From contig JAIXUE010000010.1 in the NCBI GenBank assembly GCA_027483605.1, forward strand, positions 1-64,000: a DNA stretch of 64,000 nt, written 5' to 3'. Below are positions 1 to 45,221 of this stretch, piece after piece; position 1 is the first letter of the stretch, and each line of letters opens with the position of its first letter. The position numbers were made by a program, and so were the translations under genes. This stretch comes from Cryomorphaceae bacterium. Its GTDB lineage: Bacteria; Bacteroidota; Bacteroidia; Flavobacteriales_D; Crocinitomicaceae. The notes under the pieces were generated by a model. The model did no database searches and had not been told where the DNA came from. It was given only the letters and a program-made list of their open reading frames with translations.

Positions 1-1106
1 GCATAGAGCTCTTGGTAGTAAGCTACGCTTGTTTGCGCCTGAATGTGAGTTGCTTTTTCTGAATGTCCGGACTGCGTGTCATAGAACATGGTAGCACTCG
101 TTGCATAAACCAACTCGAATTTATTTTGAATAAAATCCCACCAAGTAATTTGCTTTTCTGAGCGCAAATCTTTGTCATTTGTCGGTTTGGGCGGTAGTAT
201 TTTAATTGTACCATCTTCTGTTTTGACGGTTTGTTGATCGCTTGAACCAAAATCTAAGTACTTCGCCAATAAAAATCCGACTATTGCAAACACAACCAAG
301 GAAGACAATAGACCCAAGCACGCTTTTCTGAAATATCTGAAAAATGCGATGGCTCCAAAAAGCAATAAACTTGGTACAAATAAGGCTGGCGCTTTCCAAA
401 GGGTAAGTAGTAGCAAAATCAACATAAACCAGCGCCAACGGCGATTTCCTTTGGCTGTCATCTGCAGCGGTTGCTGAATCGGACTCACTACATCTGCTTG
501 GGTTTGTAAGTCTTGATTGATAGACCAAATATTGCTCACAACCGTTTCTTCTGTTGGTAGAACAGTCGGTTCCTGTACCACGCTTTCTGGAACTACCGGC
601 TCAACGGCCACAGGCTTTTTGACCTTTGGCGGGTCTAAATGAATTTGAAAGTAAACAACTCCTCTCGCCTGACGCAGGCCGCCAAACCATTCTTTTCCTT
701 CATCTGAGAGCGTGATTTGCTTGAGTACCACCTCGTGCAGCGTTTCTTGTAATTGCCACTGCTCATTGATTGGAATGATCAGATGGGGTCTTCGTCGAAG
801 GGTTGGCAGCTGCCATTTGAAACCACGAATCCAAGGGAAATCTTTAGCCGAACGGATTTGAGGCCAACGCCAAATGATCTGCCTAGATAAAAACATGTTT
901 TTATAAGGCTTCAAAACTTTGCGATACCAAGAATTATTGGTGTTGAGCTCCCAAGCGTCATAAACAGAAATGGCTTCTACTTGGTCAAAATGGAGTTGCT
1001 CCCATTCGATCTGATGAAAATGGTAAAATGGCAGGTGCGCGTGCTCATGGCTATTAAAAATACCCTTGAAATGCGCTTTGTAATATTTGATATGCGGATT
1101 TGCCAC
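1..1106 (-). CDS. Membrane protein of unknown family, C-terminus outside window
   Basis: The frame is open from a GTG at 1106 to the left edge, about 368 residues with no stop, so the C-terminus is missing. The GTG shares its first base with the last base of the TAG of the OmpA-like gene upstream, which suggests translational coupling and decides the start. Residues 1-150 look globular and rich in Trp, Tyr and His. A Pro/Val/Glu-rich linker (about 155-185) precedes hydrophobic segments at about 215-285 that should form two or three membrane helices; a soluble part follows. I do not recognise a family. It is the last visible gene of the leftward group that begins at 5203, so it probably acts with the OmpA-like and DUF4407 proteins in the inner membrane. 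Confidence 0.7.
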   Translation of the reverse strand, partial: MANPHIKYYKAHFKGIFNSHEHAHLPFYHFHQIEWEQLHFDQVEAISVYDAWELNTNNSWYRKVLKPYKNMFLSRQIIWRWPQIRSAKDFPWIRGFKWQLPTLRRRPHLIIPINEQWQLQETLHEVVLKQITLSDEGKEWFGGLRQARGVVYFQIHLDPPKVKKPVAVEPVVPESVVQEPTVLPTEETVVSNIWSINQDLQTQADVVSPIQQPLQMTAKGNRRWRWFMLILLLLTLWKAPALFVPSLLLFGAIAFFRYFRKACLGLLSSLVVFAIVGFLLAKYLDFGSSDQQTVKTEDGTIKILPPKPTNDKDLRSEKQITWWDFIQNKFELVYATSATMFYDTQSGHSEKATHIQAQTSVAYYQELY

Positions 1107-2407
1107 TACTCTTCTCGTCTTTCTTCTTGTGTTCGGGTTGTTTTGGTGGTGCTATTTTGAGATAACTTCACTTCTACACGTCTGTTCATTGCTCTGCCCT
1201 CTGCAGTATTGTTTTCTGTTATGGGCTCGGATTCCCCTTTTCCAGTGGCCTTGACACGCTTGGCTGCAATGCTATTTTGAATCAAGTACTGCCTTACCGC
1301 CTCTGCCCTACGCTGAGATAAAATTCGATTGGTTTCAGCATCGCCATCGGCATCTGTGTGTCCGATAATTTCAGCCGATACGTCCTTATTTTCAAGTAAA
1401 TAAGCGACGAGCTCATTGAGTTGAGGAATAGACGAGGGCAATAGCTTGGTTTTGTTTTTCTCAAATTGCACATTTGGCAAACTCAACATTTTTACTGTTG
1501 TATTTGTCGTTTCATCTACATACGTCACGGTATCTACCTTTGAATTCTTTTCTATGTAAATGGTATCGTGAATGATTTTCTCTACCACACGGACTTGGTC
1601 GGTATTCGGATTTCCACAATCACCAAAAAGCAAGCACCTAAACAACCAAAGTAAAAATGCAATTGATGCCAACAAACTTAAAATCCCGCAGCCAAAGCGC
1701 TGACATCCGGCTCCAGTGCAACCACTTGGTAACATACTTGGCATGCAGCCATTTGGTTCTGAACCAATCAAATTGCGGCCAAAAATGCCACCAAAAATAG
1801 AATTAATCCAGTTTTTAATACCCAAATTAAACCCGTAGATTTTTCGGACACAACCTCTAGATTCTTGAAAACAACCCTGGCGCTCTAAAATGATGGCTCT
1901 GGTTTCTGGCGTATCCGCATTTATAAATATCTCCTTTCCCTCCTCATCAATTTCTTGAATGCGTTTGATTACAACAGGGCCACTAATGCGGCCATGGTTA
2001 GTGCCAGGTTGATAGGCTATAAAACAGTTGTGTAAATACTTTTCCGGAACTTCATCAAATTTAAAATCTTCCCACGGGCTTGCTTTTTCATTGAAGATCT
2101 GTTCATCTTTTTCTAGCCCCATCAATAACTCGGTGGCATACATTCTCTTGCCATCAGGAGCTAGTTCTGGATGATAATAGTCAATGACCTCTTTTTCTCT
2201 GTGACTTAAAAAAGGTCCTTTTTGAATGCGGAGAAGGTGCGCTTTATAGCTTTCTTCAGAAAGCTCTTCGAGGGCATACAATTCAAAAGTTGGCTCTAAA
2301 GAAAGATAGCTAAAGATTGTTTTTTGTTCTTTACCAAGTTCTTTTGATCCTTTCGTTGAAAACTGACAACGCAATACACCTTTGTAATATGTGATGAGCG
2401 TTTTCAT
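1106..2407 (-). CDS. OmpA-family protein with long N-terminal region and one membrane helix
   Basis: A 433-residue protein. Its C-terminal part (about 312-416) is an OmpA/MotB peptidoglycan-binding domain: it contains GHTDADGD, a following SQRRAEAV helix, and NRRVEV near the end. These carry the Asp and Arg that bind diaminopimelate in this family. There is no signal peptide. Instead about 240 residues of unrecognised sequence precede a Cys/Gly-rich stretch and a single membrane helix at about 241-258. The layout is therefore cytoplasmic domain, inner-membrane helix, linker, periplasmic peptidoglycan anchor, like MotB rather than an outer-membrane OmpA. The start overlaps the stop of the preceding membrane gene by four bases (ATGA), so translation is likely coupled. 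It probably tethers this envelope complex to the cell wall. Confidence 0.85.
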   Translation of the reverse strand: MKTLITYYKGVLRCQFSTKGSKELGKEQKTIFSYLSLEPTFELYALEELSEESYKAHLLRIQKGPFLSHREKEVIDYYHPELAPDGKRMYATELLMGLEKDEQIFNEKASPWEDFKFDEVPEKYLHNCFIAYQPGTNHGRISGPVVIKRIQEIDEEGKEIFINADTPETRAIILERQGCFQESRGCVRKIYGFNLGIKNWINSIFGGIFGRNLIGSEPNGCMPSMLPSGCTGAGCQRFGCGILSLLASIAFLLWLFRCLLFGDCGNPNTDQVRVVEKIIHDTIYIEKNSKVDTVTYVDETTNTTVKMLSLPNVQFEKNKTKLLPSSIPQLNELVAYLLENKDVSAEIIGHTDADGDAETNRILSQRRAEAVRQYLIQNSIAAKRVKATGKGESEPITENNTAEGRAMNRRVEVKLSQNSTTKTTRTQEERREE

Positions 2408-3405
2408 ATTTGGACTGTTGGGCTAGTGGTAGCATTGGTTTTCGCCATTCTATTTTGAAGCTCCTTCCAACTTATATTTTCACGTTTGGTTTGAGTTGGC
2501 TCCTCTAAATATGGATTTCCTTTGTATAAAAAAGATAGATCATGTGCAGGACTATAAGCCTTGAATTTTGCCAACTCTCTCTTGGCTTCTGCCTCTAATT
2601 GTGCATAATTAGCTTCAATTAGTGCTCTAAAGTGGACATTCAGATTGGCCACATAGCTAAATTCCTTATTGCGCATCATGATGAATAACAACGCATGAGG
2701 CAAAAATAATAGCGCGCAAACTAAAAAAGCAACCATCCTAAATTCAGGGTATGCCGATGCATGTTGAAATAACTGCATGGTAAAATATTCCTCATTCACC
2801 TTTTCTTCATAAAAGGAAAGTTTTTGCGTGGCTGCGTAAGTATTTATATTTGAAGTAGTCACTACTCCATCTCTGTAGGTTTGAAGTGCTTTGTCGCGTA
2901 AAGTATCATTGTATTCCATTGTGGAAGACCAATGGAACAGCGTCGTTAGCGGAAAGACTAAAACAAATGCAAGAAGGCCCATGTAAAGAAAGCGAAAAAC
3001 AACCGTAAATCCGGGAATCGCTACATTAGTGTTCCAGCGGATGGTCTTTAGTTCTTTCCAACTGTTTTTGATCCAATCCATGGTTCGCTGCAATTTCTCT
3101 TTAGTGCTCGTCTGCATAACGACTTCATTGAGGCGCGTTAATAATTTGATTTCAGGCTTTATTAAGATCAAGGAAAAGCGAAAAATACTGATAAAAACAA
3201 AAGTTCCTAAAAGCGCAATAGGAAGCGCGAGCCAATAACTACCCGAAACAAAAAGTCCGATGACAAACATGGCCATTAAGCTACTCAGCAAAACCAGGGT
3301 AAAAGAAAACAATACAAAGTGTATGTAGCTTCTTTCCTTACCTTGCGCAGTAGCATAGCATGCGGGCTCAAGTCCGAGTAAATAAATGGCTATTTTGTCT
3401 AACAT
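2404..3405 (-). CDS. Four-helix inner-membrane protein, unknown family
   Basis: A 333-residue protein with hydrophobic segments at about 28-53, 57-80, 137-160 and 222-245. A charged, partly helical region lies between the pairs, and the soluble C-terminus has no motif that I recognise. The N-terminus, with a Cys/Ala-rich start, an Arg-Tyr pair and a close helix pair, is laid out like that of the DUF4407 neighbour, so the two may be distant relatives. That is inference from topology only. It starts five bases after the DUF4407 stop and overlaps the OmpA-like start by four bases, so it is central in a tightly packed operon. Confidence 0.75.
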   Translation of the reverse strand: MLDKIAIYLLGLEPACYATAQGKERSYIHFVLFSFTLVLLSSLMAMFVIGLFVSGSYWLALPIALLGTFVFISIFRFSLILIKPEIKLLTRLNEVVMQTSTKEKLQRTMDWIKNSWKELKTIRWNTNVAIPGFTVVFRFLYMGLLAFVLVFPLTTLFHWSSTMEYNDTLRDKALQTYRDGVVTTSNINTYAATQKLSFYEEKVNEEYFTMQLFQHASAYPEFRMVAFLVCALLFLPHALLFIMMRNKEFSYVANLNVHFRALIEANYAQLEAEAKRELAKFKAYSPAHDLSFLYKGNPYLEEPTQTKRENISWKELQNRMAKTNATTSPTVQI

Positions 3406-3410
3406 AGCTG

Positions 3411-4673
3411 TTAGGCTTGGTCGTTGTTGAAGAACTTACTAGGGTTTTCTTTAATCTCTTTGGATGTAGCTTGGTTCCATTCTTCAATAATCTGCTTATT
3501 GAGCTCCTTCTGTTTATGCATTTTCTCTTCGCGCTCAGCTTTAGCAGTTTCATAATCTAGATAAGTGTATTTATCCATGTGCATGATGCCATTGACGCTC
3601 TCGTACAGTAAAGATTCGGAAATGACTCCTGCTTCAACCTGACGCATCTTGTTGTAATTCTCTACCATGTAGTCATAAGGGCCTTTGTTGAGCATCATCT
3701 TGAAGAAAATCGGCCCCATCTCGATGCACAAGAAGACACCCAAAATGATCCAAGGAATGATTCCTCCGATTTCATGAGAAATCTGAATGCGTTTCAATAA
3801 ACCATCGTAGCCATGAGAACGCGTTTCATTGTCTTTGTAAGCTTGTCTGAGGTCATCAGTCAATTGGTTGATTTTCTCATCGGCAAAATCGAGTTGCTTT
3901 CTCCATGAACCCACTTCTGCTGCTTTGAGTTTGATAAACTTGTCTTTTTCAGCGCGCTTCGTATCGATATCCATTTGCATTTTCTTGGCGACTGGTCCGA
4001 ATCCGTAAGCTCTTTTATCTTGCATTTCTGTTTGCTGACGCGCCACTAAACCATCGATTTCATCATCGTAAGTTTTGAGCTCAGCCTCGTATCCTTTCAA
4101 CTTTTTCTCGTATTCAGCTTTGTCTTTTTCGAGTTTAGCAACATTTTGCTTGAATAAGATGTCTGTCTGGCCGTTCAGTTTTTCTGCATATTCTTTTTGA
4201 TAAGCACTCAGCTCAGAATCAATTTCGGACTCAAGAATCTTGATCTCAAGTGGCGCAGAAATAGCAAAACCCAAGATGAGTGCTATAATAATCCGAGGAA
4301 TGGCTTGACCAAATTCTTTCAAGGTGACTTTATCAGTTCCATCTCCCTTTCCTGTAGAGGAGACAATAAAACGGTCTAGGTTCAAGATGATTAAGCCCCA
4401 AACAATTCCAAAAACTATTGATCCAAGAATTGAGCCCCAACTTGTGGTGTCATGAATTGCGTTGTTTTTTGGACCAAAAATGGTATAAAACGCAAAGCCC
4501 CCCGAAAACGCTGCGAGCAAACCTGTACACAAGACAATTCCGCCTATACCCGCATACTTGACACGATCTTGCATAGGTGCTTTGGATAGAAAATAGGCAT
4601 CTGCACCGGCGCACCACCATAAAAAACGTGATACACGACTTGGTTGTTCGCTTAAATAGATTGGTTGTTCCAT
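3411..4673 (-). CDS. DUF4407 coiled-coil membrane protein
   Basis: A 420-residue protein that I assign to DUF4407. An N-terminal WWCAGAD motif precedes membrane helices at about 38-64, 83-103 and 125-147. A long charged coiled coil follows (about 150-300), then a further helix at about 308-332 and a charged C-terminal tail. In other members the coiled coil is thought to project from the membrane; the function of the family is unknown. Its start lies inside the 3' end of the 4652-5203 gene (22-base overlap), which supports one transcript. The arrangement of coiled-coil membrane protein, second membrane protein and peptidoglycan anchor suggests an envelope-spanning machine or a stress sensor, but the sequence does not show which. 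Confidence 0.85.
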   Translation of the reverse strand: MEQPIYLSEQPSRVSRFLWWCAGADAYFLSKAPMQDRVKYAGIGGIVLCTGLLAAFSGGFAFYTIFGPKNNAIHDTTSWGSILGSIVFGIVWGLIILNLDRFIVSSTGKGDGTDKVTLKEFGQAIPRIIIALILGFAISAPLEIKILESEIDSELSAYQKEYAEKLNGQTDILFKQNVAKLEKDKAEYEKKLKGYEAELKTYDDEIDGLVARQQTEMQDKRAYGFGPVAKKMQMDIDTKRAEKDKFIKLKAAEVGSWRKQLDFADEKINQLTDDLRQAYKDNETRSHGYDGLLKRIQISHEIGGIIPWIILGVFLCIEMGPIFFKMMLNKGPYDYMVENYNKMRQVEAGVISESLLYESVNGIMHMDKYTYLDYETAKAEREEKMHKQKELNKQIIEEWNQATSKEIKENPSKFFNNDQA

Positions 4674-5203
4674 GTGGTTGTATTTTGAAGGAATAATGGA
4701 TGTACTAATTTATAGTTATGATATGCTGCTTCAAAGAAGAAGCGCTTGTAGGGTATACTTTTGAATTCAAGAGAAAGGTTGACATTTTTAATTGCCAACG
4801 GTGCAACACTTTTTACTTGATGTTTGAAATTTCCAATTGGAGCTTGAATGCTATAGTAAGGAAAATGCTTGATTCGTGGTATTGGATTGGTCAGTAAAAC
4901 CCGATTGTTTTTCAAAGGCAATTCAAATTTCTTTGGAATAATTGACCAGCTTTCAAATGAACGGATTTCTAAATTGGGTGAAAAGTGATTGATGTAAGAT
5001 TTAAAAGTCCCTTTTTTTCTAAAAAAAAAGGTATTGCGTTTCCAAAACCAAAATGGTTTGGTCTTGAACTTATCGGCAACAGGTATTTGATTGTAAGTGA
5101 CCACAACAAACCAGGCTTTCGGAAAGTCAAACTCAAGGGTGAGTTCTTGTCCGTGAATAAAGTAATTCACCGACGGACTTCCGTTGAGTAGTAGTTTGAT
5201 CAT
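4652..5203 (-). CDS. Hypothetical protein, first gene of leftward envelope operon
   Basis: An open frame begins at a TTG at 5233, but the first ATG is at 5203 and gives 183 residues starting MIKLLLNGSPSV; I prefer it. The protein is rich in aromatic and basic residues, is predicted to be mostly beta, and has no signal peptide or membrane segment. No family is recognised. Its 3' end overlaps the DUF4407 start by 22 bases. A 15-base palindrome at 5230-5244 lies in its upstream region, shared with the divergent SH3 gene, and may control both directions. Confidence 0.6.
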   Translation of the reverse strand: MIKLLLNGSPSVNYFIHGQELTLEFDFPKAWFVVVTYNQIPVADKFKTKPFWFWKRNTFFFRKKGTFKSYINHFSPNLEIRSFESWSIIPKKFELPLKNNRVLLTNPIPRIKHFPYYSIQAPIGNFKHQVKSVAPLAIKNVNLSLEFKSIPYKRFFFEAAYHNYKLVHPLFLQNTTTWNNQSI

Positions 5204-5229
5204 GTTCAAATATATGAAATCGATATTTA

Positions 5230-5244
5230 ACAAGCATTGCTTGT
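5230..5244. promoter_or_regulatory. Palindrome between divergent envelope operons
   Basis: ACAAGCA-T-TGCTTGT is a perfect 7-base inverted repeat around one base. It lies in the short gap between the divergent genes starting at 5203 and 5285, so it is well placed as an operator for both. No regulator gene is adjacent. Confidence 0.35.
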
Positions 5245-5284
5245 GGATAAAAGCAATAATTTGTTAATTTGTTGAAAGTTCAAT

Positions 5285-5938
5285 ATGCCTAAAATTCATT
5301 TAGTTAAATACAAATACGAAGCAGATGTTAAAGTTTATTTCGTAGACTATCCTTATGAGGCTGATGAAAAGGTTTTCATTGTCAAGTATGCTTATGAAGC
5401 CGATTACAAAGCTTTTGAGGTAAAATATGCTTATGAGGCAGATGTAAAGGTGTATCGCGTTAAATATGCCTATGAGGCTGATGAATTTAAACGCTCCTCC
5501 AGAACTCCAAAATCCACTGGCTTCTTTAGTTCATCTGGTAGTTCAAGTTCAGATAGTAGTTCTACTATATCAGACTTTTCGTCAGGTAGTTCCTTTGGCA
5601 CAAGTTCAACTACTTCGAGTGATTCCTCTTCAGGAGGTGGATGTTTTTCTAAGCTATTCTCTTGGCTTGTTGTGATTGCATTAATTGGCGGTGCGCTCAA
5701 ATACTTTGGCATTATCGGTGACAATTCTACTGAAGACTCTTCAGGTAAAATAATCAATACCAAAGGGTTAAATCTAAGAACCGAACCAGGTACAAGCGGT
5801 GAAATCATCAAACTCATGATTCAAAATGATTCTATTTGGCAATTGAATGATTCTAGTCAAGAGATAGGTTCACAAACTTGGGTTTATGTGACCGACAAAG
5901 TAGATACTGGCTGGGTGAATAAAAAATACTTAAAATAA
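5285..5938 (+). CDS. 13-residue repeat / Ser-rich / membrane / SH3 protein
   Basis: A 217-residue protein in four parts. Residues 7-67 are five near-identical 13-residue units of the type VKYAYEADVKVYR, a repeat I associate with the DUF6150 family (moderate certainty). Residues 70-112 are almost all Ser, Thr and Gly. A membrane helix follows at about 118-138. The C-terminus (about 152-217) is a bacterial SH3 domain with the typical LNLRTEPGTSGEIIK start and a final GWVNKKYLK. The repeat domain is thus on one side of the membrane and the SH3 domain on the other; SH3 domains of this kind often bind peptidoglycan. It opens the rightward envelope operon and ends three bases before the next start. 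Confidence 0.8.
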   Translation: MPKIHLVKYKYEADVKVYFVDYPYEADEKVFIVKYAYEADYKAFEVKYAYEADVKVYRVKYAYEADEFKRSSRTPKSTGFFSSSGSSSSDSSSTISDFSSGSSFGTSSTTSSDSSSGGGCFSKLFSWLVVIALIGGALKYFGIIGDNSTEDSSGKIINTKGLNLRTEPGTSGEIIKLMIQNDSIWQLNDSSQEIGSQTWVYVTDKVDTGWVNKKYLK

Positions 5939-5941
5939 ACA

Positions 5942-7273
5942 ATGTACGCAGAACTAAAGGCTAATGCAGCCATCATCAGAGTAGTTGGTATTTTTGAAGA
6001 AAAGTACTCCAAAAAACTTGAGCAACGCTTCCAAAAATTAGGCTTCAAAAATGAAATCCTTTCCGATAATACCAAAGGTTTCCTAAAAAACAACTACTAC
6101 CCTGAGTTCCGTGATCTCATGTTCATAAGTCAGGAACCTTCAAGTGCACAAATTCTACAACTTACTACCGTTCCTCATATCACCTTTCTAAAAAAGGCGG
6201 GTGAAAACAATTTTATTGAAGTCGCTACTGAGGTTCAACAAGTCGAGTTATTCTTGTTTCCAAATGGCTTGCACTTCTTTTCTATCGAATTAAATCCAAA
6301 TGAACTAGCGTTATCTCAACTATCAGATCTCATGTTCTGTTCGAGAAGTTTTGACTCTGAAATGAAAAATCAGGGTACTAAAATCACTTGGGTAGAATGG
6401 ATCGAGAAAAATTATTTAGATAACATTCAAATCAGTTCAAAAACCGACAAGCGAATCCATGTCGATGAGTTTTCAGGAAGTAAGTTCAAGTTGTTTAGTG
6501 TCATTGATATACCTGAAAATGAGAACAAAATTGATGTGAGTACTCGTGAAAACTTACTTTACGATTTGGGTAGTGTTACTCAAATTGGTACGGCAGGTGG
6601 TAATAATTATCTGACGCCCAGTGATGAATACTTCGATACATTAATGAACGAAAAAATTGCAGTTTTTAATAATTATACAATACTTCCTTTATTTGATACT
6701 TTTACAGCTCTAGGCGAAGGTTATATAACTGCTAAAGATCCAAAGCATATGCTTGGGATGAGGCTCACTTGGACCCAAACATATTTCAGGATTTACCTTT
6801 TCAATATCTTCATGAAGTACAATCTATTCCGTTACAATTTGGAAATGGGTGATGACTCCGTAAAAGTAAGGGATGAGTTCGAAAGTTTTTTAAACACCTA
6901 CAATATTGGTCACCTATCCTACAACTTTTTACCCAATCTCATTTTCCAACAGCATCGAAAGAGTTTACAGATTGACGAAGAATTGGAAAAGTTTCAAGAG
7001 CGGATCAACCGAATTTCTCAGGCTATTCAAGAAGATCAACAAAAACGTTCTAATCTTTTGCTCGGAATTGTTGGTGCAATGACTTCAATTTCTGGATTAC
7101 AGCCAGTGTTAGAATACCTTGAAATCGGTCGTAAAACAGTCGGTATGGGGTATTTCAGTTACTACCCTGTCCTTTTACTTATCGTCTTGGTTTTAGTCCT
7201 TCCACTTTTGGCATATCTCTTCCCTGAGAAGAAAAAACAGTTTTTGCGCAAATGGAAACAAAGAAAAGCATGA
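5942..7273 (+). CDS. Large soluble domain with C-terminal coiled coil and membrane hairpin (CorA-like layout)
   Basis: A 443-residue protein. The first 340 residues look like a soluble alpha/beta domain with no motif that I know. A charged helix around 345-380 (QIDEELEKFQERINRISQAI) leads into two hydrophobic segments at about 375-395 and 402-424 and a basic tail. A long helix followed by a C-terminal helix pair is the layout of CorA and RMD1-type proteins. The CorA signature GMN is not seen, so transport of Mg is not supported. It sits between the SH3 membrane protein and a small soluble protein, whose start overlaps its stop (ATGA). Confidence 0.7.
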   Translation: MYAELKANAAIIRVVGIFEEKYSKKLEQRFQKLGFKNEILSDNTKGFLKNNYYPEFRDLMFISQEPSSAQILQLTTVPHITFLKKAGENNFIEVATEVQQVELFLFPNGLHFFSIELNPNELALSQLSDLMFCSRSFDSEMKNQGTKITWVEWIEKNYLDNIQISSKTDKRIHVDEFSGSKFKLFSVIDIPENENKIDVSTRENLLYDLGSVTQIGTAGGNNYLTPSDEYFDTLMNEKIAVFNNYTILPLFDTFTALGEGYITAKDPKHMLGMRLTWTQTYFRIYLFNIFMKYNLFRYNLEMGDDSVKVRDEFESFLNTYNIGHLSYNFLPNLIFQQHRKSLQIDEELEKFQERINRISQAIQEDQQKRSNLLLGIVGAMTSISGLQPVLEYLEIGRKTVGMGYFSYYPVLLLIVLVLVLPLLAYLFPEKKKQFLRKWKQRKA

Positions 7274-7788
7274 CTATAGAGCAGGCTTTTTACTTGTTGA
7301 AACATTTCACAGAACTTGATTCAGATGCGCATGCCCTCTTCTTAGCACATGGCTTTAAGGAGGCTGAAATCACTCAACAACTTCAAACAATCGGCTCAAA
7401 GTTTTACAATTCGTTTTGCACGAGTCCTTTCAATTTAGAAGAGCAGTTAAAAAGGGTCAAACCTATTGAAAAAATCATCCAATCCAATGGAAGAACTGCT
7501 CAGGTTTATCAGTTTGACCAAGAGATCGGCACTGAACAGGTCATTGAAAAAGAAAAAGTCAATCAAGAAGAAATTGTTCAATTGGAAAGGAATGGCCATC
7601 TGATTGAGGCCGTGCAACTCCCAGAACTTCCCCACACAAATCAGCTTGTCGTTGTGAAGTCTAAAGAAGATGCCTGGATTACCGCGTTTCCTGGAAAATA
7701 TGCCCCAGCATTTCCGAGCGATTGGATGAGTAAAGAAGAATACCAATTTGCCACTGATTTTTGGCAGCAACATGTATTTATCAAATGA
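7270..7788 (+). CDS. Hypothetical soluble protein, translationally coupled
   Basis: The frame is open from an ATG at 7252, but the ATG at 7270 forms an ATGA overlap with the stop of the previous gene, and the next gene is joined to this one in the same way, so I choose 7270 (172 residues). The protein is acidic, without signal peptide or membrane helix. The middle (residues about 55-115) is a Glu/Gln-rich stretch that may be helical. No family is recognised. Its tight coupling on both sides suggests fixed stoichiometry with the membrane and outer-membrane proteins next to it. Confidence 0.65.
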   Translation: MTIEQAFYLLKHFTELDSDAHALFLAHGFKEAEITQQLQTIGSKFYNSFCTSPFNLEEQLKRVKPIEKIIQSNGRTAQVYQFDQEIGTEQVIEKEKVNQEEIVQLERNGHLIEAVQLPELPHTNQLVVVKSKEDAWITAFPGKYAPAFPSDWMSKEEYQFATDFWQQHVFIK

Positions 7789-8591
7789 CAAAACGCAGCT
7801 TGCTTCTTTTAATTTGTATGGGTTTTACGATAAACTTGAAATCCCAGATTCTAGTGCTTGATCGTGAAAACGGAGAAGATTCCATGCCACGCAAGCAGTT
7901 ATTTGCATGGAATGTGAGCTTTTCAAGTGACAAGCAAAAGAAGAACTTACTTGAGCTATCCAACTCAGCTGAATACGATCGTTTCTTCAAGAACGACCAA
8001 GTCCTTATCACTTTATTGAATACTGATGCTTCATTTAACGGAAAAACCATTTTAGAAAACAACGGCTACTTTCAGATGCGACTGCGCAACAATGACAAAA
8101 AGCGCGTTGCGCCAGACTATTTTATGCAATATCAATGGAATGGCATTTGGGGGCTACAAAATCGAGCAATAGCAGGTTGCAATGCGCGCTTCAAATTTTG
8201 GGACGACAAAACAGACGACCTCTTCATGAGTATTGGAGCGTTTTATGAATATGAGAAATGGAATCCAAACCTAAGTAGCTATGCCTTTGGAGGAAACTCA
8301 CAAGAAATTGTGTATCGACATATTCCAAGATTGAATTTATCGGCCAAAACTGCAGTTCAGTTAACTAAAGGGATAGACTTATCTGCTATTACATTTGTGC
8401 AATTTCCGATGAATGATGCCTTCTCACATTTTACACAACCACGATGGTTCTTGGACCTCAACCTCAACTTTGACATCAACAAACACCTCTCAATGGTCCT
8501 GCATTATGACCAAAATATTGATTATTACAGACCCTTACCTATCGACACTTACTTTTATAATCTGAATATGGGTTTTCAATTGAAATGGTAA
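7785..8591 (+). CDS. Outer-membrane beta-barrel protein (DUF481-like), paralogue of 45222-46043
   Basis: I choose the ATG at 7785, which overlaps the previous stop (ATGA) and gives a clear signal peptide (MTKRSLLLLICMGF through KSQ). The mature part (about 248 residues) has alternating aromatic and polar strands, such as YFMQYQWNGIWGLQNRA and FYEYEKWNPN, and ends in an aromatic-containing strand (MGFQLKW), typical of an outer-membrane barrel. It resembles DUF481 proteins. It is clearly paralogous to the protein at 45222-46043: both carry FSSDKQK, ILENNGY/VLENNGY, QYQWNG and RPLPID. It ends the rightward operon and probably provides its outer-membrane component. Confidence 0.75.
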   Translation: MTKRSLLLLICMGFTINLKSQILVLDRENGEDSMPRKQLFAWNVSFSSDKQKKNLLELSNSAEYDRFFKNDQVLITLLNTDASFNGKTILENNGYFQMRLRNNDKKRVAPDYFMQYQWNGIWGLQNRAIAGCNARFKFWDDKTDDLFMSIGAFYEYEKWNPNLSSYAFGGNSQEIVYRHIPRLNLSAKTAVQLTKGIDLSAITFVQFPMNDAFSHFTQPRWFLDLNLNFDINKHLSMVLHYDQNIDYYRPLPIDTYFYNLNMGFQLKW

Positions 8592-10324: not shown

Positions 10325-11575
10325 CTAAAAATATCCCTTATACTTCTGCGCTGTGAGTTCAGCGTCGAGTTTGAGGTATTTGAGGAAGTTGCGTTCTGAA
10401 GTGTGGCCGGTGAACTTCATGATGGCTTGGGCAGGCATTCCCTTGAGGAATTTGAGGGTGCAGAAAGTGCGGCGGCAGGTATGTGACGACACCTCTTCGA
10501 ATTTGTATTTGGTGACTTTAATAGTCTTGCCAGCGATTTCTCGGTAGAACTTGATCTCGTCCTTCATGTTCAATGACTCGCAGATTTCACGGATCATTTT
10601 GTTGAAGTTGGTGATGTGGTTTTTGTCGAGGTTGGGCAATACGCCATCATACTTCTCCAAAATGCGTTTGAAGCGATCACTGAGCGGAATGATAACCTTT
10701 TTCACCCCTTGCTTTTTGGTTTTCTTCGGGACAATATGCAACTCTTCACGCATGAAGTCGTGGGGTTGGATACGCACGTAGTCAGAGTAGCGCAAGCCCG
10801 TTTCACAACCTACCAAAAACAAATCTCGGACAATGGCGTATTTTGGATCTTCAATGACTTTGTTTTCAATCGCTTCTAAATCGGCTTCGGTAAGGTAAAT
10901 GTTGTCGACATCTTCCATGATGGTCGGGTAACCCTTCAAACTGAATCGGGTGGTGATGTTCTTGTCAAAGCACCAATTGAAGAAGGCCTTGATATTTTTG
11001 TTTTCCTTGCCAATGCTATTTGGCATGAGGCCGCTGTCTCCTTGAGAATTGATGGCTATGAAAGAAAGGTAGTTGGTCCATTCTTCATTGAACCTGCTGC
11101 TTTGTGCGTTGATGAGTGCAAAAGTCAAAGGCCTTCCGATGATTTCTTCGGTTTTGCGCAGGTGCTTGCGTAAGCCGTTATGGTAATGGCGCACATCTGG
11201 GTTAATCTTGCGTTTCTCGGCAATAAAATCTTCGAAGTGGTCCCAGAAGGTTTTGGCCTTCTTGCTTTTGGTTGGCACCTTGTTGAGTTTCATCAAATCT
11301 GCTTTGATGACCTCTGGGCTTGGGTAGAAATCTTCGTCACGGTATTTTTTCATCAAGGAATCCATGACCACTTCATATTGGTCTAATTTATCATTGATAA
11401 TGTTTGCATCTTGATTCTCAATTGTTACTTTTACACGTTGCTTTTTCTCAAGCCATAGTTTCGGATCTACCGAACAACCTGTAGACAATTTAACTCTGAT
11501 ATTGTCATAAAATACAGTCATAAAGATGAGGGTCTGATTGACCGCATTTTTATTCTTCAAATAGTAGTTTATCAT
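10325..11575 (-). CDS. Tyrosine recombinase / integrase
   Basis: A 416-residue phage/conjugative-element type integrase of the Bacteroidota. The N-terminus (about 1-100) is an arm-binding domain with the usual IRVKLSTGCSVDPKLWLEK start. The SAM-like core-binding domain spans about 105-215 and the catalytic domain about 225-416. The catalytic residues are visible: Arg in GCETGLRYSDY, His and Arg in SSHTCRRTF, His in FTGHTS, and Tyr in NFLKYLKL. Length is normal and the gene looks intact. It marks a mobile or formerly mobile element, but I could not find a tRNA or a pair of att repeats in the window. The sequence before its start has a promoter box and a direct repeat. Confidence 0.95.
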   Translation of the reverse strand: MINYYLKNKNAVNQTLIFMTVFYDNIRVKLSTGCSVDPKLWLEKKQRVKVTIENQDANIINDKLDQYEVVMDSLMKKYRDEDFYPSPEVIKADLMKLNKVPTKSKKAKTFWDHFEDFIAEKRKINPDVRHYHNGLRKHLRKTEEIIGRPLTFALINAQSSRFNEEWTNYLSFIAINSQGDSGLMPNSIGKENKNIKAFFNWCFDKNITTRFSLKGYPTIMEDVDNIYLTEADLEAIENKVIEDPKYAIVRDLFLVGCETGLRYSDYVRIQPHDFMREELHIVPKKTKKQGVKKVIIPLSDRFKRILEKYDGVLPNLDKNHITNFNKMIREICESLNMKDEIKFYREIAGKTIKVTKYKFEEVSSHTCRRTFCTLKFLKGMPAQAIMKFTGHTSERNFLKYLKLDAELTAQKYKGYF

Positions 11576-17108: not shown

Positions 17109-17516
17109 ATGAAACGCATCGAGGTCGTAGCTGCCGTCATCCAACACCAAAACAAAATCCTCGCCGTCCAGCGCGGCCCCGCCAAATACGCCTACATCTC
17201 CGAAAAATGGGAATTCCCTGGCGGCAAAATGGAAGCCGGTGAAACCGAAGAGCAGACGATCATCCGCGAGATACGAGAAGAACTCGACATGCAAATCAAG
17301 GTGCAATCCAAGCTGCTAACAGTCGAACACCCCTACCCCGATTTTCACCTCACAATGCATACATACTTGTGCGAAACTGAGCAAAGCGAACCAAAGCTGA
17401 CGGAGCATTTGGCGTTTAGGTGGTTATCGATAGATGAATTGGAAGTTTTGGATTGGGCGGGTGCTGATGTGCCGGTGGTACAGATTTTATTGCAGTCAGT
17501 AATAGACGAAGCATGA
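17109..17516 (+). CDS. NUDIX hydrolase, MutT-like
   Basis: A 135-residue protein with a full NUDIX box: GGKMEAGETEEQTIIREIRE followed by ELDM, with the REIREE metal-binding glutamates in place. It starts KRIEVVAAVIQHQNKILAVQR, typical of MutT-type 8-oxo-dGTP diphosphatases, and ends with WLSIDELEVLDWAGADVPVV, also found in that branch. The likely role is cleaning the nucleotide pool of oxidised dGTP, but NUDIX substrates cannot be told safely from sequence. Its stop overlaps the start of the sigma factor gene by four bases (ATGA). Confidence 0.9.
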   Translation: MKRIEVVAAVIQHQNKILAVQRGPAKYAYISEKWEFPGGKMEAGETEEQTIIREIREELDMQIKVQSKLLTVEHPYPDFHLTMHTYLCETEQSEPKLTEHLAFRWLSIDELEVLDWAGADVPVVQILLQSVIDEA

Positions 17517-18052
17517 CCGAACTCGAACTGCTCAGAACAAACCATCACTATTATTCAAGCCTCTACCGGCAGCATCGGGTGGTGGTATTTCAGCATCTGA
17601 TGCAATTCACAAAAGATGAGGCCTATTTGGCCGATTTATACCAAGATGCCATCATTGTCCTATTTGAAAAAGCGAAAGACCCTGCTTTTACCTTGACATG
17701 TTCTATTCGGACTTATCTGATTGCGATTTGCAGGAAGCAGATTTTCAAGCGAGCCGGCCGAGCACCAGAAATTGTAAGTTTAGAGGGTGAGCTGACCAAC
17801 TATAGCGATTGGCTGACCGATCAACTCGAGTTGGAAAGAAAGAAAAGTCAGTTGGATAAACTAGATAAGGTTTTGAACCACTTTGAAAGCATTGCTCAAA
17901 AATGCTACGAGCTGCTCTATCGCTTCTTTTACATGAAGGAGTCCTTTGACCTCATTGCCAAAGTAATGGGCTACACCAACGCAGACAACGCCAAGAACCA
18001 AAAAGCCCGTTGCCAGAAAAAATTGCGTGAACTTTATCTCGAAGAAAAATGA
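17513..18052 (+). CDS. ECF-type RNA polymerase sigma factor
   Basis: A 179-residue protein of the Bacteroidota ECF type. Region 2 is at about 18-75: FQHLMQFTKDEAYLADLYQDA and the following RTYLIAICRKQIFKR match sigma region 2.2-2.4. Region 4 is at about 125-175: YELLYRFFYMKESFDLIA and MGYTNADNAKNQKARCQKKL form its helix-turn-helix. It is translationally coupled to the NUDIX gene before it and to the small membrane protein after it, a typical sigma/anti-sigma arrangement. Its targets may be the secreted-protein genes that follow. Confidence 0.85.
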   Translation: MTELELLRTNHHYYSSLYRQHRVVVFQHLMQFTKDEAYLADLYQDAIIVLFEKAKDPAFTLTCSIRTYLIAICRKQIFKRAGRAPEIVSLEGELTNYSDWLTDQLELERKKSQLDKLDKVLNHFESIAQKCYELLYRFFYMKESFDLIAKVMGYTNADNAKNQKARCQKKLRELYLEEK

Positions 18053-18445: not shown

Positions 18446-18480
18446 AAAACTATGACCATGAAAAAGCTCCTTTTGATTTT
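18446..18480 (+). repeat. 35-base identical 5' segment, second copy at 19719-19753
   Basis: The 35 bases that span the start codon and signal-peptide codons of the gene at 18452 recur without change at 19719-19753 before and within the gene at 19725. The sequences diverge at once afterwards. This shows recent duplication or gene conversion limited to the 5' end. Confidence 0.85.
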
Positions 18481-18889
18481 TTTACTCGCCAGTGCAAGTG
18501 CCAACGCACAGTGGTCTGTGATGCAGAAATACAGTGAATTTGGCAAAGGCAACTACTATTTATTTGCTTCCACGGAGAAAGATGCACGGCGCATTATCCT
18601 AGAAACACTCCAAGACAACCAACTGAGCTACGATTTAGTGTTCAAGAAGGGAGCCAACCTGCTGCTCACCACGGCCATTGTGGATCCGCTCAATAGCGAA
18701 TACGTATACGTGATCCATTCCATGAGAGGCCAGTACTACAATAAGCCAGGCTACCACGTCTTTTGCTACTACATGGAAAACCGCTACCGCTATTTCTATG
18801 ACATCACGGAAGGTGAAAACCGCATCTCGCTGATCTACGAACCTGGCGTGCTCAATGTGAGCCCCAACAAAGACAAAAACAACAAATAA
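18452..18889 (+). CDS. Small secreted protein A1
   Basis: A 145-residue exported protein; the ATG at 18452 (MTMKK) or the one two codons on may be used. The signal peptide ends in ASANAQ. The mature part (about 125 residues) has a pattern shared with the next gene: a FGKGNYYLF segment, a helix, LVFKKGANLLLTT, then YVYVIHSMRG, and an aromatic strand. No family is recognised. It opens a run of secreted and cytosolic small genes after an ECF sigma locus, and its 5' end is shared with the gene at 19725. Confidence 0.7.
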   Translation: MTMKKLLLIFLLASASANAQWSVMQKYSEFGKGNYYLFASTEKDARRIILETLQDNQLSYDLVFKKGANLLLTTAIVDPLNSEYVYVIHSMRGQYYNKPGYHVFCYYMENRYRYFYDITEGENRISLIYEPGVLNVSPNKDKNNK

Positions 18890-18919
18890 GAAAAGTATCC
18901 ACAAGTAAAACATCAAGTC

Positions 18920-19372
18920 ATGAAAACAATTGTGTTCAGTATCGCCATCCTACTTGGGCTTCAGCAAACAGCCACCGCCCAATACCAGTTCAACCTCATG
19001 GAAGACTACCTGCAAATTGGCGCCGGTAATTATTTCATCCATCTCGACAAAGAAGCCGAAGTCAAAAAAACGGTGCTGTCGGTACTCAAAAGCCACCGCT
19101 TCCCCAACCAAGATTTGGTCTTCAACAAAGGCAAAAACCTCTACTTCGCCGCCTACTACGTCAATCCGTCCGACGACCGCTACATGTACGTCATCCACGC
19201 ACTCAAAGGCCGCGAGGGCTACGAACTCTACTTCTTGTACTGCATCAACACCCTGACCCACCACTTCGAATACACTGAAGGCAAAGACCTCTACGCCTTA
19301 GTCTACGACCCCGCTAAAAATACGAGCAGCGTCCTGACGAGCTTCGGCGCCACTAAAGTTGACGAACCATGA
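18920..19372 (+). CDS. Small secreted protein A2, relative of A1
   Basis: A 150-residue exported protein with a signal peptide ending in TATAQ. It aligns with A1 along its length: IGAGNYFIHLD versus FGKGNYYLFAS, LVFNKGKNLYFAAYYV versus LVFKKGANLLLTTAIV, and YMYVIHALKG versus YVYVIHSMRG. The two are therefore tandem duplicates. The stop overlaps the start of the 107-residue cytosolic gene by four bases (ATGA), so the pair is translated together. A secreted protein coupled to a cytosolic one resembles an effector/immunity or effector/adaptor pair, but no toxin motif is seen. Confidence 0.7.
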   Translation: MKTIVFSIAILLGLQQTATAQYQFNLMEDYLQIGAGNYFIHLDKEAEVKKTVLSVLKSHRFPNQDLVFNKGKNLYFAAYYVNPSDDRYMYVIHALKGREGYELYFLYCINTLTHHFEYTEGKDLYALVYDPAKNTSSVLTSFGATKVDEP

Positions 19373-20680: not shown

Positions 20681-21760
20681 CTATTTTAAAAATCTAATCT
20701 GAAGATTAAGTTTGAAAAATTGGCTACCATCCTTTTCGTAAACTTTACCAAAATCATGTCGAGTGCTACTTGCTGTTTCTAAGCGAGTGTTCGAGATTAA
20801 ATAATCTTCAAATTGGTTTCTGTTATATATGTGATAACAGAGAACTTCACCGTCTTCCTTAACAACAAGATAACCTCCAGTAGCATCAAGCTCTCCTGTC
20901 CAAACTTTTGAAGGCATCATTCCTAATGCAACATCCGTTAAGAATCTTTTCATTTTATAAATATAAAATGGATGACTCGTATCTAAGTCAAAATTAAGTG
21001 GATTCTGATTCGTGATTTCAGAAATCAAATCTTTAGTTTTAGTTAAAGAGGATGTAAAAAATAGATAGACTAGCTCAGAGATTATTTGAGGCAAGGAGCT
21101 GTCTATTAAAATCAAATTGTTACCAAAAATATTGCTCTCATTGTTAATAAATTTTAATGAACCTGAATGCTGACCTATCTTTTCAATTCTATCTTTTATC
21201 TTACTTCTTGATTCTATTGAGTTGATTTCTTCAATTTCCTCTTTTGTGAGGTAGCAGTTTTCAATTTGAAAAATAAAATTGGTGGTTTTCCCTGCATTTA
21301 AAAGTGTTGAAGGCTCACCTAATTGAGATTTGATACTAAATCCTAATTCGGGTTTTGTATAAGTTCTATGATCGTGTATAACAATTCGAATATCACTCTT
21401 GATAGTTGACTTTGCCTTGATTGAAGTGCATTTGAAAGATTTAATAAATGATTCAATCTCCGGGATGGAAAATGCAGCCGATGTCGTTTCTTTTAATTTT
21501 GAAAGTAAAAAGGTGGCTTTTTCTCTGAAGTCAATAATTGGAATTCGAAACTCATCCTCAACTCCTTTGATAACGACTAGATCACTTTCATAACCAAATT
21601 CAAAAGTTCCATTTGATTCGTCTCTTAGAATTTTAATAATTGGGAATATAAGGCTTTCGATTTTGTTAAGCTCGCTATCACCAGCTACCAGGTTTTGATC
21701 CGAAATAATTTTGAGCAATGTGTAAATTTCGCTCCATTCACCTTTATTTCCCGTTAACAT
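20681..21760 (-). CDS. HpaII-family type II restriction endonuclease
   Basis: A 359-residue protein close in length to R.HpaII (358). It begins with GNKGEWSEIYTLLKII and continues with LNKIESLIFPIIKILRDE, which is the conserved start of the HpaII family. A central ELGFSIKSQLG supplies the Glu-x-Lys part of a nuclease site; an acidic residue upstream (IKSDIRIVIHDH) would complete it. HpaII enzymes cut CCGG, so this one probably does too, but specificity is inferred. It lies two bases after the stop of the cytosine methyltransferase gene, on the same strand, making a complete type II restriction-modification pair. The segment is clearly more AT-rich than its surroundings, as expected for acquired DNA. 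Confidence 0.85.
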   Translation of the reverse strand: MLTGNKGEWSEIYTLLKIISDQNLVAGDSELNKIESLIFPIIKILRDESNGTFEFGYESDLVVIKGVEDEFRIPIIDFREKATFLLSKLKETTSAAFSIPEIESFIKSFKCTSIKAKSTIKSDIRIVIHDHRTYTKPELGFSIKSQLGEPSTLLNAGKTTNFIFQIENCYLTKEEIEEINSIESRSKIKDRIEKIGQHSGSLKFINNESNIFGNNLILIDSSLPQIISELVYLFFTSSLTKTKDLISEITNQNPLNFDLDTSHPFYIYKMKRFLTDVALGMMPSKVWTGELDATGGYLVVKEDGEVLCYHIYNRNQFEDYLISNTRLETASSTRHDFGKVYEKDGSQFFKLNLQIRFLK

Positions 21761-21762
21761 TA

Positions 21763-23025
21763 TTAAAGAATTCGTTTAATTATTTCTTTAGCTGTTTCCT
21801 TAATTGCAGGAACAGCGACTGAATTTCCAAATTGTTTGTATGCCGAAGCATCAGCTACAGGTATAATAAATTCATCTGGAAAACCTTGAAGTCTTGCCCA
21901 TTCTCTCGGAGTCATTTTGCGAATACCTTCTCTATTTACTGTTCCTTTAATTTTAGTGGTTGGATTGAAATCAGTAATTCTATTATCAATTACAAGATTC
22001 CTTTCTCTACCCATACCGCCGCAAACAACAGCGTTTGAAATCTCATCATCTTGAATGATACTGTAACCAAAGCCATTGCCTTTACTAGCATGTCTTTCTT
22101 TATGATCTTTTAGGGTCTTTAAATACTGAGTTGATAGAAAAAATTTCGTTGGAGGTACCGTTGATTCCTTTATATCTCCGAAGCTTATTTTTTTATTCAT
22201 TGGTTTAGGATAATTGAATTCTTGAATCATAGTTGATTTATGGAATCCAACGATAAAAATTCGCTCCCTATTTTGAGGGACACCAAAGTCTTTTGCATTA
22301 ATAACTTGAGGTTCAGGAATGTAATAACCTAAATCTTCACGTAGTACATTCAGAATTGTTGATAGTGTTTTCCCTTTGTCATGATTTCTTAATCCTTTAA
22401 CATTTTCAAGAAAAAAAGCTTTCGGTTGTTTCTTCTTGATTATTTCAGCAACATCAAAAAACAACGTTCCCCTTGTATCCTCAAATCCACCCCGTTTACC
22501 CGCAATTGAAAACGCTTGACATGGAAATCCAGCACAAAGAACATCAAATCCATCAGGAATAAAATTCTTAGTTTCAGCTTTAGTAATATCTCCAAATGGA
22601 ATTTCGCCAAAATTGGCGTGATAAGTTTTTTGAGCATGTTGGTCCCATTCACTTGTAAATAAACATTTGCCTCCAAGACTTTGCAGTGCTAATCTGAACC
22701 CCCCAATACCTGCAAATAAGTCAATAAAGGTAAATTTTGGTTTTTCGGGTTCTGGAAAGGGTATACTATTCTTTAGATTAAAAAGTGCATATTGTAAAGC
22801 ACTTTCAGCAACAACTTGCGTAATTTCTTTACCTGGACTCTTATATTCTAGTGTTTTTTTAATGTGATCGAGTGCAGATTTTTTATAAAATTTACAAACC
22901 TCATTTTTCGAATTGTGTAAGTAATGAGTAAAAGCAGCCGTGCCAAATTCATTAAATTCTGACGAATTATTTTTAACTGATTTTGCAAAAATGTCTTCTA
23001 AAGAAATTTCATTTTCTAAACTCAT
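21763..23025 (-). CDS. DNA (cytosine-5) methyltransferase
   Basis: A 420-residue C5 methyltransferase. Motif I is FTFIDLFAGIGGF (98-110), motif IV is AGFPCQAFSIAG with the catalytic Cys169, motif VI is FFLENVKG (205-211), motif VIII is PQNRERIF (250-257), and motif X is QFGNSVAVPAIKE near the end. The target-recognition region lies between about 285 and 375. About 95 residues precede motif I; this N-terminal extension has helices and may bind DNA as a regulator, as reported for some C5 methyltransferases that control their operon. With the HpaII-like nuclease downstream, the likely target is CCGG. Confidence 0.95.
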   Translation of the reverse strand: MSLENEISLEDIFAKSVKNNSSEFNEFGTAAFTHYLHNSKNEVCKFYKKSALDHIKKTLEYKSPGKEITQVVAESALQYALFNLKNSIPFPEPEKPKFTFIDLFAGIGGFRLALQSLGGKCLFTSEWDQHAQKTYHANFGEIPFGDITKAETKNFIPDGFDVLCAGFPCQAFSIAGKRGGFEDTRGTLFFDVAEIIKKKQPKAFFLENVKGLRNHDKGKTLSTILNVLREDLGYYIPEPQVINAKDFGVPQNRERIFIVGFHKSTMIQEFNYPKPMNKKISFGDIKESTVPPTKFFLSTQYLKTLKDHKERHASKGNGFGYSIIQDDEISNAVVCGGMGRERNLVIDNRITDFNPTTKIKGTVNREGIRKMTPREWARLQGFPDEFIIPVADASAYKQFGNSVAVPAIKETAKEIIKRIL

Positions 23026-42393: not shown

Positions 42394-42477
42394 ATTTTGC
42401 TCCCATTGGAAAGATATTATTTTCCTCGCCATTTTGGTATTGCTCATCATACTCATTATACTCACAAAAAAACAACT

Positions 42478-43341
42478 ATGAAGTACTTCAACATTTTAAT
42501 TGGCATGGCTGCTATTGTCATTTTTAGTTCTTGTAGTGGCCCCGAGCGCCAAGTAAAGAAGCTTTTTAAGCGCATCAATGCCCAAGAAATTAGTAGTGCA
42601 TCCAAGTATATTTGGCCCGAAGACCACGCCAAGTTATACGTCTTCAACAAGCGGTTTTTGGAAAAAAATCCACTGACTACCTTTGAAATCGTCGAGACCG
42701 AAGAGAAAGAAGTAGCAGGCCAAACCAAAGTTCTAGCCGAAGTGCGCGTATTGAATGGTTCTGCACAGCTCCTGGCTTATTTTGATTCGCTTCAAATTCT
42801 AGACAAAGATGTCATCAAAATTGAGTTTGAACAAAAAACAGCCAATGAAACGGACTACTATACTTTTCCATTTAATTGGGACGACACACCGATGCCTAGC
42901 GAGCTCAAATTAGGCGTTATTCGAACCAAAGAACTCAACCTGAGAAGTGGAACGGGTACCAACTTCCCGGTAGTTTCTACAGCAAAAGAAAACGAACAAT
43001 TACTCATCGATCCAAATTTCGAAAACGAAAACTGGCGCCGCGGCTTTTTGATTTCAGACGACAAACCAGTTCAAGCCTGCTACTTTTCAAGCCAATTCAG
43101 CGAAACCAAAACGATTTCCTTTTTTACCCTTGGGTATTTTGAATCTTTCTCCCTAATTGTGCTCTGCTTGTTAGGTGTATTGGTTTGCTTGGTATTCTTG
43201 GTGCTTGCCGTAGTTGGTGTGGGTACCGGCGGAATAGCCTTATTGATCATCATTCCACTCATCTTCGGGCCCTTGTTTTTCTTGTATCAACTTTTAGAAA
43301 ATTTCTTTTTTGAAGTATTCCTGATCAATTTACCTTACTGA
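42478..43341 (+). CDS. SH3-domain lipoprotein with C-terminal membrane hairpin
   Basis: I use the ATG at 42478 (MKYFNILIGMAAIVIFSSCSG), which gives a lipoprotein signal with the lipid Cys about residue 19; the frame is open to 42397. Residues 20-145 are a soluble domain of unknown type. Residues about 146-205 form a bacterial SH3 domain (TKELNLRSGTGTNFPVV). Two hydrophobic helices at about 218-245 and 247-270 then form a membrane hairpin. A lipid anchor plus helices is unusual. An SH3/membrane protein also opens the operon at 5285. The stop overlaps the KAP NTPase start (TGATG), so they are co-translated. Confidence 0.7.
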   Translation: MKYFNILIGMAAIVIFSSCSGPERQVKKLFKRINAQEISSASKYIWPEDHAKLYVFNKRFLEKNPLTTFEIVETEEKEVAGQTKVLAEVRVLNGSAQLLAYFDSLQILDKDVIKIEFEQKTANETDYYTFPFNWDDTPMPSELKLGVIRTKELNLRSGTGTNFPVVSTAKENEQLLIDPNFENENWRRGFLISDDKPVQACYFSSQFSETKTISFFTLGYFESFSLIVLCLLGVLVCLVFLVLAVVGVGTGGIALLIIIPLIFGPLFFLYQLLENFFFEVFLINLPY

Positions 43342-45173: not shown

Positions 45174-45221
45174 ATAATCGTTTTTACTGAGTTTTAAATA
45201 TTACCGACTACAATCCATCAA

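Follow-up and report, generated by a model that had tools for sequence, protein, structure and literature searches.

Two divergent envelope gene runs in a Cryomorphaceae genome, probably part of a STAND-type immune locus

Do the two divergent runs of envelope genes at positions 1-8591 of a contig from a Cryomorphaceae bacterium (GenBank assembly GCA_027483605.1, contig JAIXUE010000010.1) form one system, and what would such a system do? The stretch of DNA analyzed, termed here the window, comprises nucleotides 1-64,000 of this contig (C13), counted from base 1, in a genome of 2.39 Mb labelled G000. It holds part of a larger gene cluster, and the initial annotation covered one portion of the locus. 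The genes probably belong to an immune locus of the STAND type, 19-23 kb long and equipped with a module that spans the envelope; antiphage abortive infection is its most likely role. In terms of sequence content, the locus is composed of an E-D-C-B-A operon (with a DUF350 gene added in relatives), a G-H(-I) unit, and STAND, HEPN-motif, and sensor-like genes that are present in relatives only.

In the window, genes E-D-C-B-A run leftward on the minus strand and F-G-H-I rightward on the plus strand (Table 1). The left operon is incomplete because the window starts at base 1 of the contig. Overlaps exist between A and B (position 1106), B and C (2404-2407), and D and E (4652-4673), and C and D are separated by 5 nucleotides. 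On the other strand, F and G are 3 nucleotides apart, G and H overlap at 7252-7273, and H and I share an ATGA overlap if I starts at ATG 7785. The gene coordinates thus bear out the two divergent runs of touching or overlapping genes described by the initial annotation. Pfam cut-offs were passed by DUF4407 in D (7.6e-59), OmpA in B (9.5e-22), DUF481 in I (8.1e-7), and DUF6150 (4.8e-8) and SH3_3 (3.4e-7) in F. The genes it named are real, but E, A, and H had gone undescribed. The proposed envelope assembly likewise omitted H and the STAND part of the relatives.

The proposal that the two gene groups belong together is supported. Among 120 genomes of the family, D has matches in 27 and G in five, and all five G-bearing genomes also have D. 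The close form of D, defined by E ≤ 1e-70, is present in 11 of the 120; the hypergeometric probability for five out of five G genomes against this background is 2.4e-6, with kinship ignored. A set of 395 genomes of the phylum contains D-like proteins in 115 genomes and G in two, both of the window's genus. Among named species genomes, 20 loci in 19 assemblies matched G, which with G000 gives 20 G-bearing genomes; by record title these assemblies are Flavobacteriales, Cryomorphaceae, Bacteroidetes, and single genera. A D match is present in 13 of the 20 (G000, G022, G015, G108, G037, and eight of the 15 others), and is of the close subtype in 12 of the 13; the D of G514 is more distant and lies on another contig.

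In all nine genomes with G and D on one contig or on overlap-joined contigs, the two are 1.3-20.5 kb apart. The distance is approximately 1.3 kb in G000 and G022, 13.8 kb in G037, approximately 14.5 kb in G108, 14.6 kb in G521, 16.2 kb in G015, 18.8 kb in G517, 19.2 kb in G515, and 20.5 kb in G518. The value for G108 depends on an exact 149-nucleotide overlap of two contig ends, within which the end of A and the start of DUF350 fall. D and G are on different contigs in G516, G520, and G524, and no exact overlap of at least 30 nucleotides was found among the contig ends compared (for G520, parts of both contigs). Occurrence in unrelated neighborhoods, named by the initial annotation as evidence against a common assembly, was found for the single families DUF4407 (115 of 395 genomes) and DUF481 (29 of 120). 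DUF4407 was rejected as a marker of the system, since it is too common across the phylum; the marker is the long operon subtype.

The divergent E/F adjacency was seen in three genomes (the window, G022, and G516, where G sits on another contig). The order (E-)D-C-B-A-DUF350, followed by sensors and STAND gene, and then by (I-)H-G in the converging orientation, was found in G515, G517 (no I), G518 (E unrecognized), and G015. The window and G022 seem to hold a rearranged form of this order. F occurs only in the window, G022, and G516 among the mapped loci and was rejected as a core part for this reason. Homologues of E are present in G022, G015, G108, G515, G516, G517, and G521. The start of E is likely ATG 5203 and not TTG 5233, as judged by eye from the open reading frames.

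Several further observations speak for a linked immune locus. First, 12 of the 20 G-bearing genomes have a STAND gene no more than 20 kb from G (G022, G015, G037, G108, G514, G515, G517, G518, G519, G521, G526, and G527, the last with a match to only the first part of G). The eight without a nearby STAND gene are G000 and seven with G contigs of 3.0-18.2 kb. Second, HEPN16, the STAND NTPase ST13, an E-like gene, D, C, and B are consecutive on one strand in G087, where G was not found. Third, a 1611-residue membrane STAND protein of G098, with the P-loop GAKKMGKT and encoded 3 kb from a DUF4407 operon, has an H-like domain at its C-terminal end (residues 1463-1608, 27% identity, E 1.4e-11). The patchy distribution of the locus (G in five of 120 family genomes) was also counted in favor of this reading.

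The DUF350 gene is followed in relatives by one of two alternative modules; names were given to neighboring genes only if a profile or Pfam scan covered them. Module 1 contains one to three large proteins beginning with LEPTY, HEPN16, and ST13 (G022, G015, G517, and G518), often with family f33; ST13 matches NPHP3_N at 6.2e-13. Module 2 contains a STAND-TPR protein, ST19, with an Avs2-like NTPase region (8.5e-11) and TPR repeats (1.6e-103), and is present in G515, G037, G108, and G521. Fragments lie beside module 2 in two genomes, a 92-residue piece of ST13 in G037 and a 99-residue LEPTY piece in G521. Loci L115 and L130 contain an NTPase-only form, ST19b, followed by three separate TPR proteins.

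The LEPTY and TPR proteins are constant at one end only. Four LEPTY proteins, after removal of a duplicate and a fragment, share 82-97% identity over the first 120 residues and 18-38% over the aligned remainder. For six TPR proteins, identity is 67-91% at the N-terminus and mostly 24-30% beyond it, with one pair at 53%. The same contrast exists within a single genome, where three LEPTY paralogues of G518 are 92-96% identical at the N-terminus and 22-25% in the remainder. This pattern suggests sensor-like proteins in which the N-terminus would dock and the divergent remainder would recognize. The motif R-N-x3-H, which we take to be the HEPN RNase motif (R-x4-6-H), is invariant in seven of seven HEPN16 proteins and in the N-terminal part of seven of seven ST13 proteins, counted on full-length rows with shorter or duplicate rows dropped. 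The Pfam match to HEPN is weak (0.0073).

Two genes of the right-hand run are candidate effectors. PADLOC CorA-like models match the C-terminal part of G in 15 of 15 homologues, with a best value of 5.4e-16; in the window's G the value is 9.3e-9 over residues 307-432, the helical and transmembrane (TM) part only. In the AlphaFold2 (AF2) model of G (pLDDT 71), an alpha/beta N-terminal part is followed by long helices and, at the C-terminus, a TM pair. The GMN motif is the mark of CorA Mg2+ transporters. G is regarded as CorA-like and not as such a transporter, since the GMN string is missing from the window's G. At L132 (10001-10343), the match to G covers no more than the first ~115 residues, after which another reading frame begins, with ST13-HEPN16-f33 6 kb away; this fragment is possibly a broken or swapped effector.

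H directly follows G in 14 of the 18 loci L113-L130; it was not found in L119 and L123, and in L126 and L129 G runs to the contig end. The AF2 model of H has a pLDDT of 92.9. VIA-align places it near an apicomplexan protein (2pd0, Z 9.4), MafB2-CT (Z 7.8, root-mean-square deviation (rmsd) 4.1, 96 aligned), 4fbd (Z 7.4), YxiD-CT (Z 7.0, rmsd 3.3, 95 aligned), and the Y. kristensenii CdiA-CT (Z 4.8), with further chains at 3.6 and lower; Z values under 8 may reflect a common arrangement. Residues H18, T144, and H174 are invariant in 14 of 14 sequences, and K50 is kept in 13 of 14. Hydropathy gives no TM or signal-like segment in H.

I lies beside G in eight of the 18 loci. The DUF481 barrel also occurs beside KAP NTPases or ordinary-looking genes, and was rejected as a specific part in favor of a recurrent accessory. 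A second barrel related to I is present at 42397-46043 of the window, together with a lipoprotein-like gene (with a C-terminal hydrophobic stretch) and a KAP NTPase (PF07693 at 1.3e-38, PADLOC PifA at 2.3e-31). The trio of KAP gene, 296-residue gene, and barrel is found again in G015:C2, G062:C24, and G035:C2, and the segment may represent a second conflict system, one that includes an outer-membrane component.

The envelope module is composed of D, C, B, A, and the DUF350 protein. C and D, the inner-membrane pair, are related (hhalign probability 98, E 2.5e-13), and hydropathy gives four TM segments in each and one in B. In D, the last TM segment is preceded by a long, charged helical stretch, read as a putative periplasmic coiled coil. 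Residues 276-430 of B match PADLOC ZorB1 at 1.7e-14, mainly in the OmpA part. The N-terminal parts of A and B show possible kinship (hhalign probability 53%). Full-length relatives of A are 541-552 residues long in G022, G015, and G108 (552 in G022), with two TM segments and a C-terminal transglutaminase-like Cys-His-Glu domain. The Cys, His, and Glu columns are kept in 12 of 12 untruncated rows, the truncated window and G077 rows and the duplicate L113 being left out. The window's own A lacks this part due to the contig end, and a search of G000 with the G022 homologue returned the truncated A as the sole match. A DUF350-like gene with four TM segments follows A in G022, G015, G108, G037, G515, G517, G518, G520, G521, and others. 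Searches of PDB sequences with the profiles of G, H, and D yielded no useful match. In G006:C19 (L043) and G105:C347 (L045), a distant DUF4407 gene follows vWA-like, PP2C-like phosphatase, and kinase-like genes, as judged by eye.

A non-immune role is an unlikely alternative. In such a machine for envelope stress or homeostasis, the DUF4407 protein, C, B, A, and DUF350 would maintain the wall and membrane, G would be a channel, I a porin, and the STAND protein a growth control. A general function of this kind is better suited to a protein as widespread as DUF4407, and it fits with the DUF350 proteins in phage-shock-type envelope-stress operons (as given in excerpts of PMC11237479) and with the I-type barrels whose neighbors in G092 and G065 look like ordinary genes. 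Against it, the operon subtype that carries STAND, HEPN-motif, and RNase A-like genes has a patchy distribution, and the divergent sensor-like arrays and RNase-like effectors of relatives meet no obvious homeostatic need.

Co-location of separate systems in one island or hotspot, without joint function, is improbable. The DUF4407 operon, the G-H-I unit, and the STAND modules would then be independent neighbors. The linkage in nine measurable genomes despite differing internal order argues against this, as do the A-DUF350-G-H tandem on one strand in L130, the G087 run, and the fusion in G098. Consistent with it are an integrase at 10325-11575 and another beside G in G037, the HpaII-type restriction-modification (R-M) system and Schlafen-type helicase downstream, the absence of G from 22 of the 27 D-positive family genomes, and the differing kinds of STAND module. 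A polymorphic-toxin-like offensive system would have H as its toxin and would use the envelope complex together with the DUF481 barrel for export. The predicted fold of H, like that of the CdiA-CT, MafB2-CT, and YxiD toxins, speaks for it, but it is very hard to credit given an H that shows no TM or signal-like segments by hydropathy and an H-like domain fused to a STAND NTPase in G098.

Several results weigh against the immune reading itself, which is based on sequence and model analysis. No D match was found in seven of the 20 G-bearing genomes (G513, G519, G522, G523, G525, G526, and G527). These seven are metagenome-assembled genomes (MAGs) of unstated completeness, and many genomes of the set are fragmented MAGs; the G contigs of G526 and G527 are nonetheless 41.6 and 58.4 kb long. 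In G526 (locus L130), the C-terminal part of A and the DUF350 gene lie directly before G-H on one strand. The D of G521 is broken into pieces. No homologue of ST13, HEPN16, LEPTY, or ST19b was found in G000, rated 99.88% complete, in searches run partly with positive genomes alongside and partly without. The window therefore shows the envelope module and F-G-H-I and no NTPase. The STAND part may be hidden past the contig end inside A, and loss in G000 is equally possible.

Individual assignments also count on this side. The Walker A motif is GMGKG instead of GxGK[ST] in seven of seven ST13 proteins (including G022:C1:62115-63605), with a Walker B-like IDxLDEAQ alongside it in all seven. The transglutaminase match of A and the DUF350 match (2.7e-4) are under the Pfam cut-offs. 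The G model had no PDB match, and its fold searches stayed at or below Z 5, a result still compatible with a CorA fold. Foldseek alone with H gave no match at E ≤ 0.001, and most of its VIA-align values are in the range where caution applies. G was unmatched in phage, plasmid, and viral-contig collections, so there is no direct sign of mobility; D had one distant match in the plasmid collection, in Nonomuraea. The window's D is 83% identical to that of G015, from another genus, and 68% identical to that of G108, from the same genus. Similarity of the parts does not follow kinship simply and is compatible with horizontal transfer.

If the immune reading is correct, a complex of D, C, B, and A would reach from the cytoplasm to the cell wall, and would either report envelope disturbance, such as phage injection, or anchor the machine. 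The sensors would dock through their constant N-terminus onto one NTPase hub. Activation would release the RNases (the HEPN proteins and H) and open the CorA-like pore (G), and growth would stop before phage release. A bolder form, which we put forward tentatively and hold to be rather unlikely, is an envelope-wired bacterial "inflammasome". Here, exchangeable sensors with a shared docking domain would converge on one NTPase hub, a peptidoglycan-tethered DUF4407-OmpA-transglutaminase complex would give a wall-breach signal, and the CorA-like pore and the HEPN and RNase A-like RNases would be fired. To our knowledge, DUF4407 would thereby gain its first known role, and the STAND immune machine would carry its own gauge of wall damage. 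The locus gives the widespread DUF4407 a testable role, and multiplexing is suggested, with many sensors to one effector hub. In the open-licence PubMed Central (PMC) literature, three papers name DUF4407, and excerpts of two of them only list it; DUF6150 is not mentioned in that literature, and such a combined locus is absent among the matches listed in it.

The locus is most likely a further form of NTPase-based conflict system. In the excerpted text of Kaur et al. 2020 (PMC7159879), NTP-dependent conflict systems have STAND-type NTPases, TPR or other superstructures, and exchangeable effectors, and some iSTAND ternary systems contain TM segments and peptidoglycan-binding domains such as OmpA. 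The main text of that article does not contain "DUF4407" or "CorA". As in STAND/Avs systems, there are, in relatives only, a STAND NTPase gene (ST13 or ST19) and a diversified sensor-like region. The present locus differs in its separate DUF4407/OmpA/transglutaminase-like/DUF350 operon, its CorA-like and RNase A-like pair, and, in some loci, several sensor-like paralogues per NTPase.

Zorya ZorAB includes an inner-membrane protein with an OmpA/MotB-like peptidoglycan-binding domain, a proposed sensor of phage-caused wall change (excerpts of PMC11890865). B resembles this protein through its ZorB1 match. PADLOC ZorA, of the MotA type, has no match in A, C, or D at E ≤ 1, and membership in Zorya was rejected for lack of a ZorA/MotA-like subunit. 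The partner here is instead the DUF4407 pair, with HEPN-motif, CorA-like, and RNase A-like proteins as the effector candidates. The gene set would unite two themes of bacterial immunity, namely the wall sensing known from Zorya and the STAND sensing known from Avs. The CorA associated with type III CRISPR has an N-terminal soluble domain and a C-terminal TM domain and is a proposed immunity pore (excerpts of PMC10600005); G has the same build, with H and STAND genes as its recurrent partners. MafB2-CT and CdiA-CT Ykris are RNases of the RNase A fold, in which an early His serves as the base and late Thr/Tyr or His residues as acids; YxiD is a tRNase superposed on MafB2-CT (excerpts of PMC9970974 and PMC12700104). 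H is predicted to have a fold of this kind, and its conserved early His and late Thr/His may correspond to these catalytic residues; no sequence similarity to these toxins was detected. Such toxin domains end secreted proteins that come with an immunity gene, whereas H is a gene in a STAND locus.

The region between E and F contains a palindrome with 7-base-pair arms, ACAAGCATTGCTTGT, at 5230-5244. At the window-wide rate, approximately 0.024 inverted repeats of equal strength are expected in 81 base pairs. The initial annotation saw here a control site shared by both operons. The palindrome is present, but it is absent from the E/F intergenic regions of G022 and G516, the two relatives with the divergent E/F layout, and for this reason it does not qualify as a conserved control site. 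Apart from this, the G022 region mostly resembles that of the window (mean column identity 81%) and retains the block TTGTGGATAAAA.CAATAATTTGTTAATTTG. The palindrome is probably not a functional site, and a palindromic control site was rejected, as neither of the two relatives carries it. The claim of a single divergent unit under this palindrome is likewise not supported; the layout is rare, and in other mapped genomes the two groups flank the STAND/sensor module.

Table 1. Features at positions 1-8591 of the window.
Feature	Position	Strand	Description	Evidence
A	3..1106	-	Two-TM protein truncated at the contig end, N-terminal part present	
B	1106..2407	-	Soluble N-terminal part, Cys-rich segment, one TM, OmpA peptidoglycan-binding domain	
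C	2404..3405	-	Four-TM protein, remote DUF4407 paralogue	hhalign, hydropathy
D	3411..4673	-	DUF4407 protein, four TM	Pfam 7.6e-59, hydropathy
E	4652..5203	-	Small protein, no TM, without assigned family	
Palindrome	5230..5244	.	15 nucleotides in the E/F intergenic region, not conserved	
F	5285..5938	+	DUF6150-type short repeats, Ser-rich linker, TM, SH3_3 domain	
G	5942..7273	+	Alpha/beta N-terminal part, long helix, C-terminal TM hairpin; CorA-like, candidate channel effector	
H	7252..7788	+	RNase A-like predicted fold, candidate RNase effector	AF2 model
I	7785..8591	+	DUF481-family outer-membrane-barrel-like protein; hydrophobic, signal-peptide-like N-terminus	Pfam 8.1e-7, hydropathy

The surroundings of these genes were also recorded. 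The integrase at 10325-11575 is a phage-integrase-family recombinase located 1.7 kb from the end of I, and the integrase beside G in G037 (L083:4057-5289) has an identical Pfam make-up. The HpaII-type restriction endonuclease (4.5e-140) adjoins a C5 cytosine methylase (1.5e-103) at 20681-23025, and the Schlafen group 3-type helicase (8.5e-100) lies beside these R-M genes at 23249-25114. Homologues of the genes at 17513-18052 and 18452-19372 lie upstream of G-H-I in L116, which suggests a shared insertion neighborhood.

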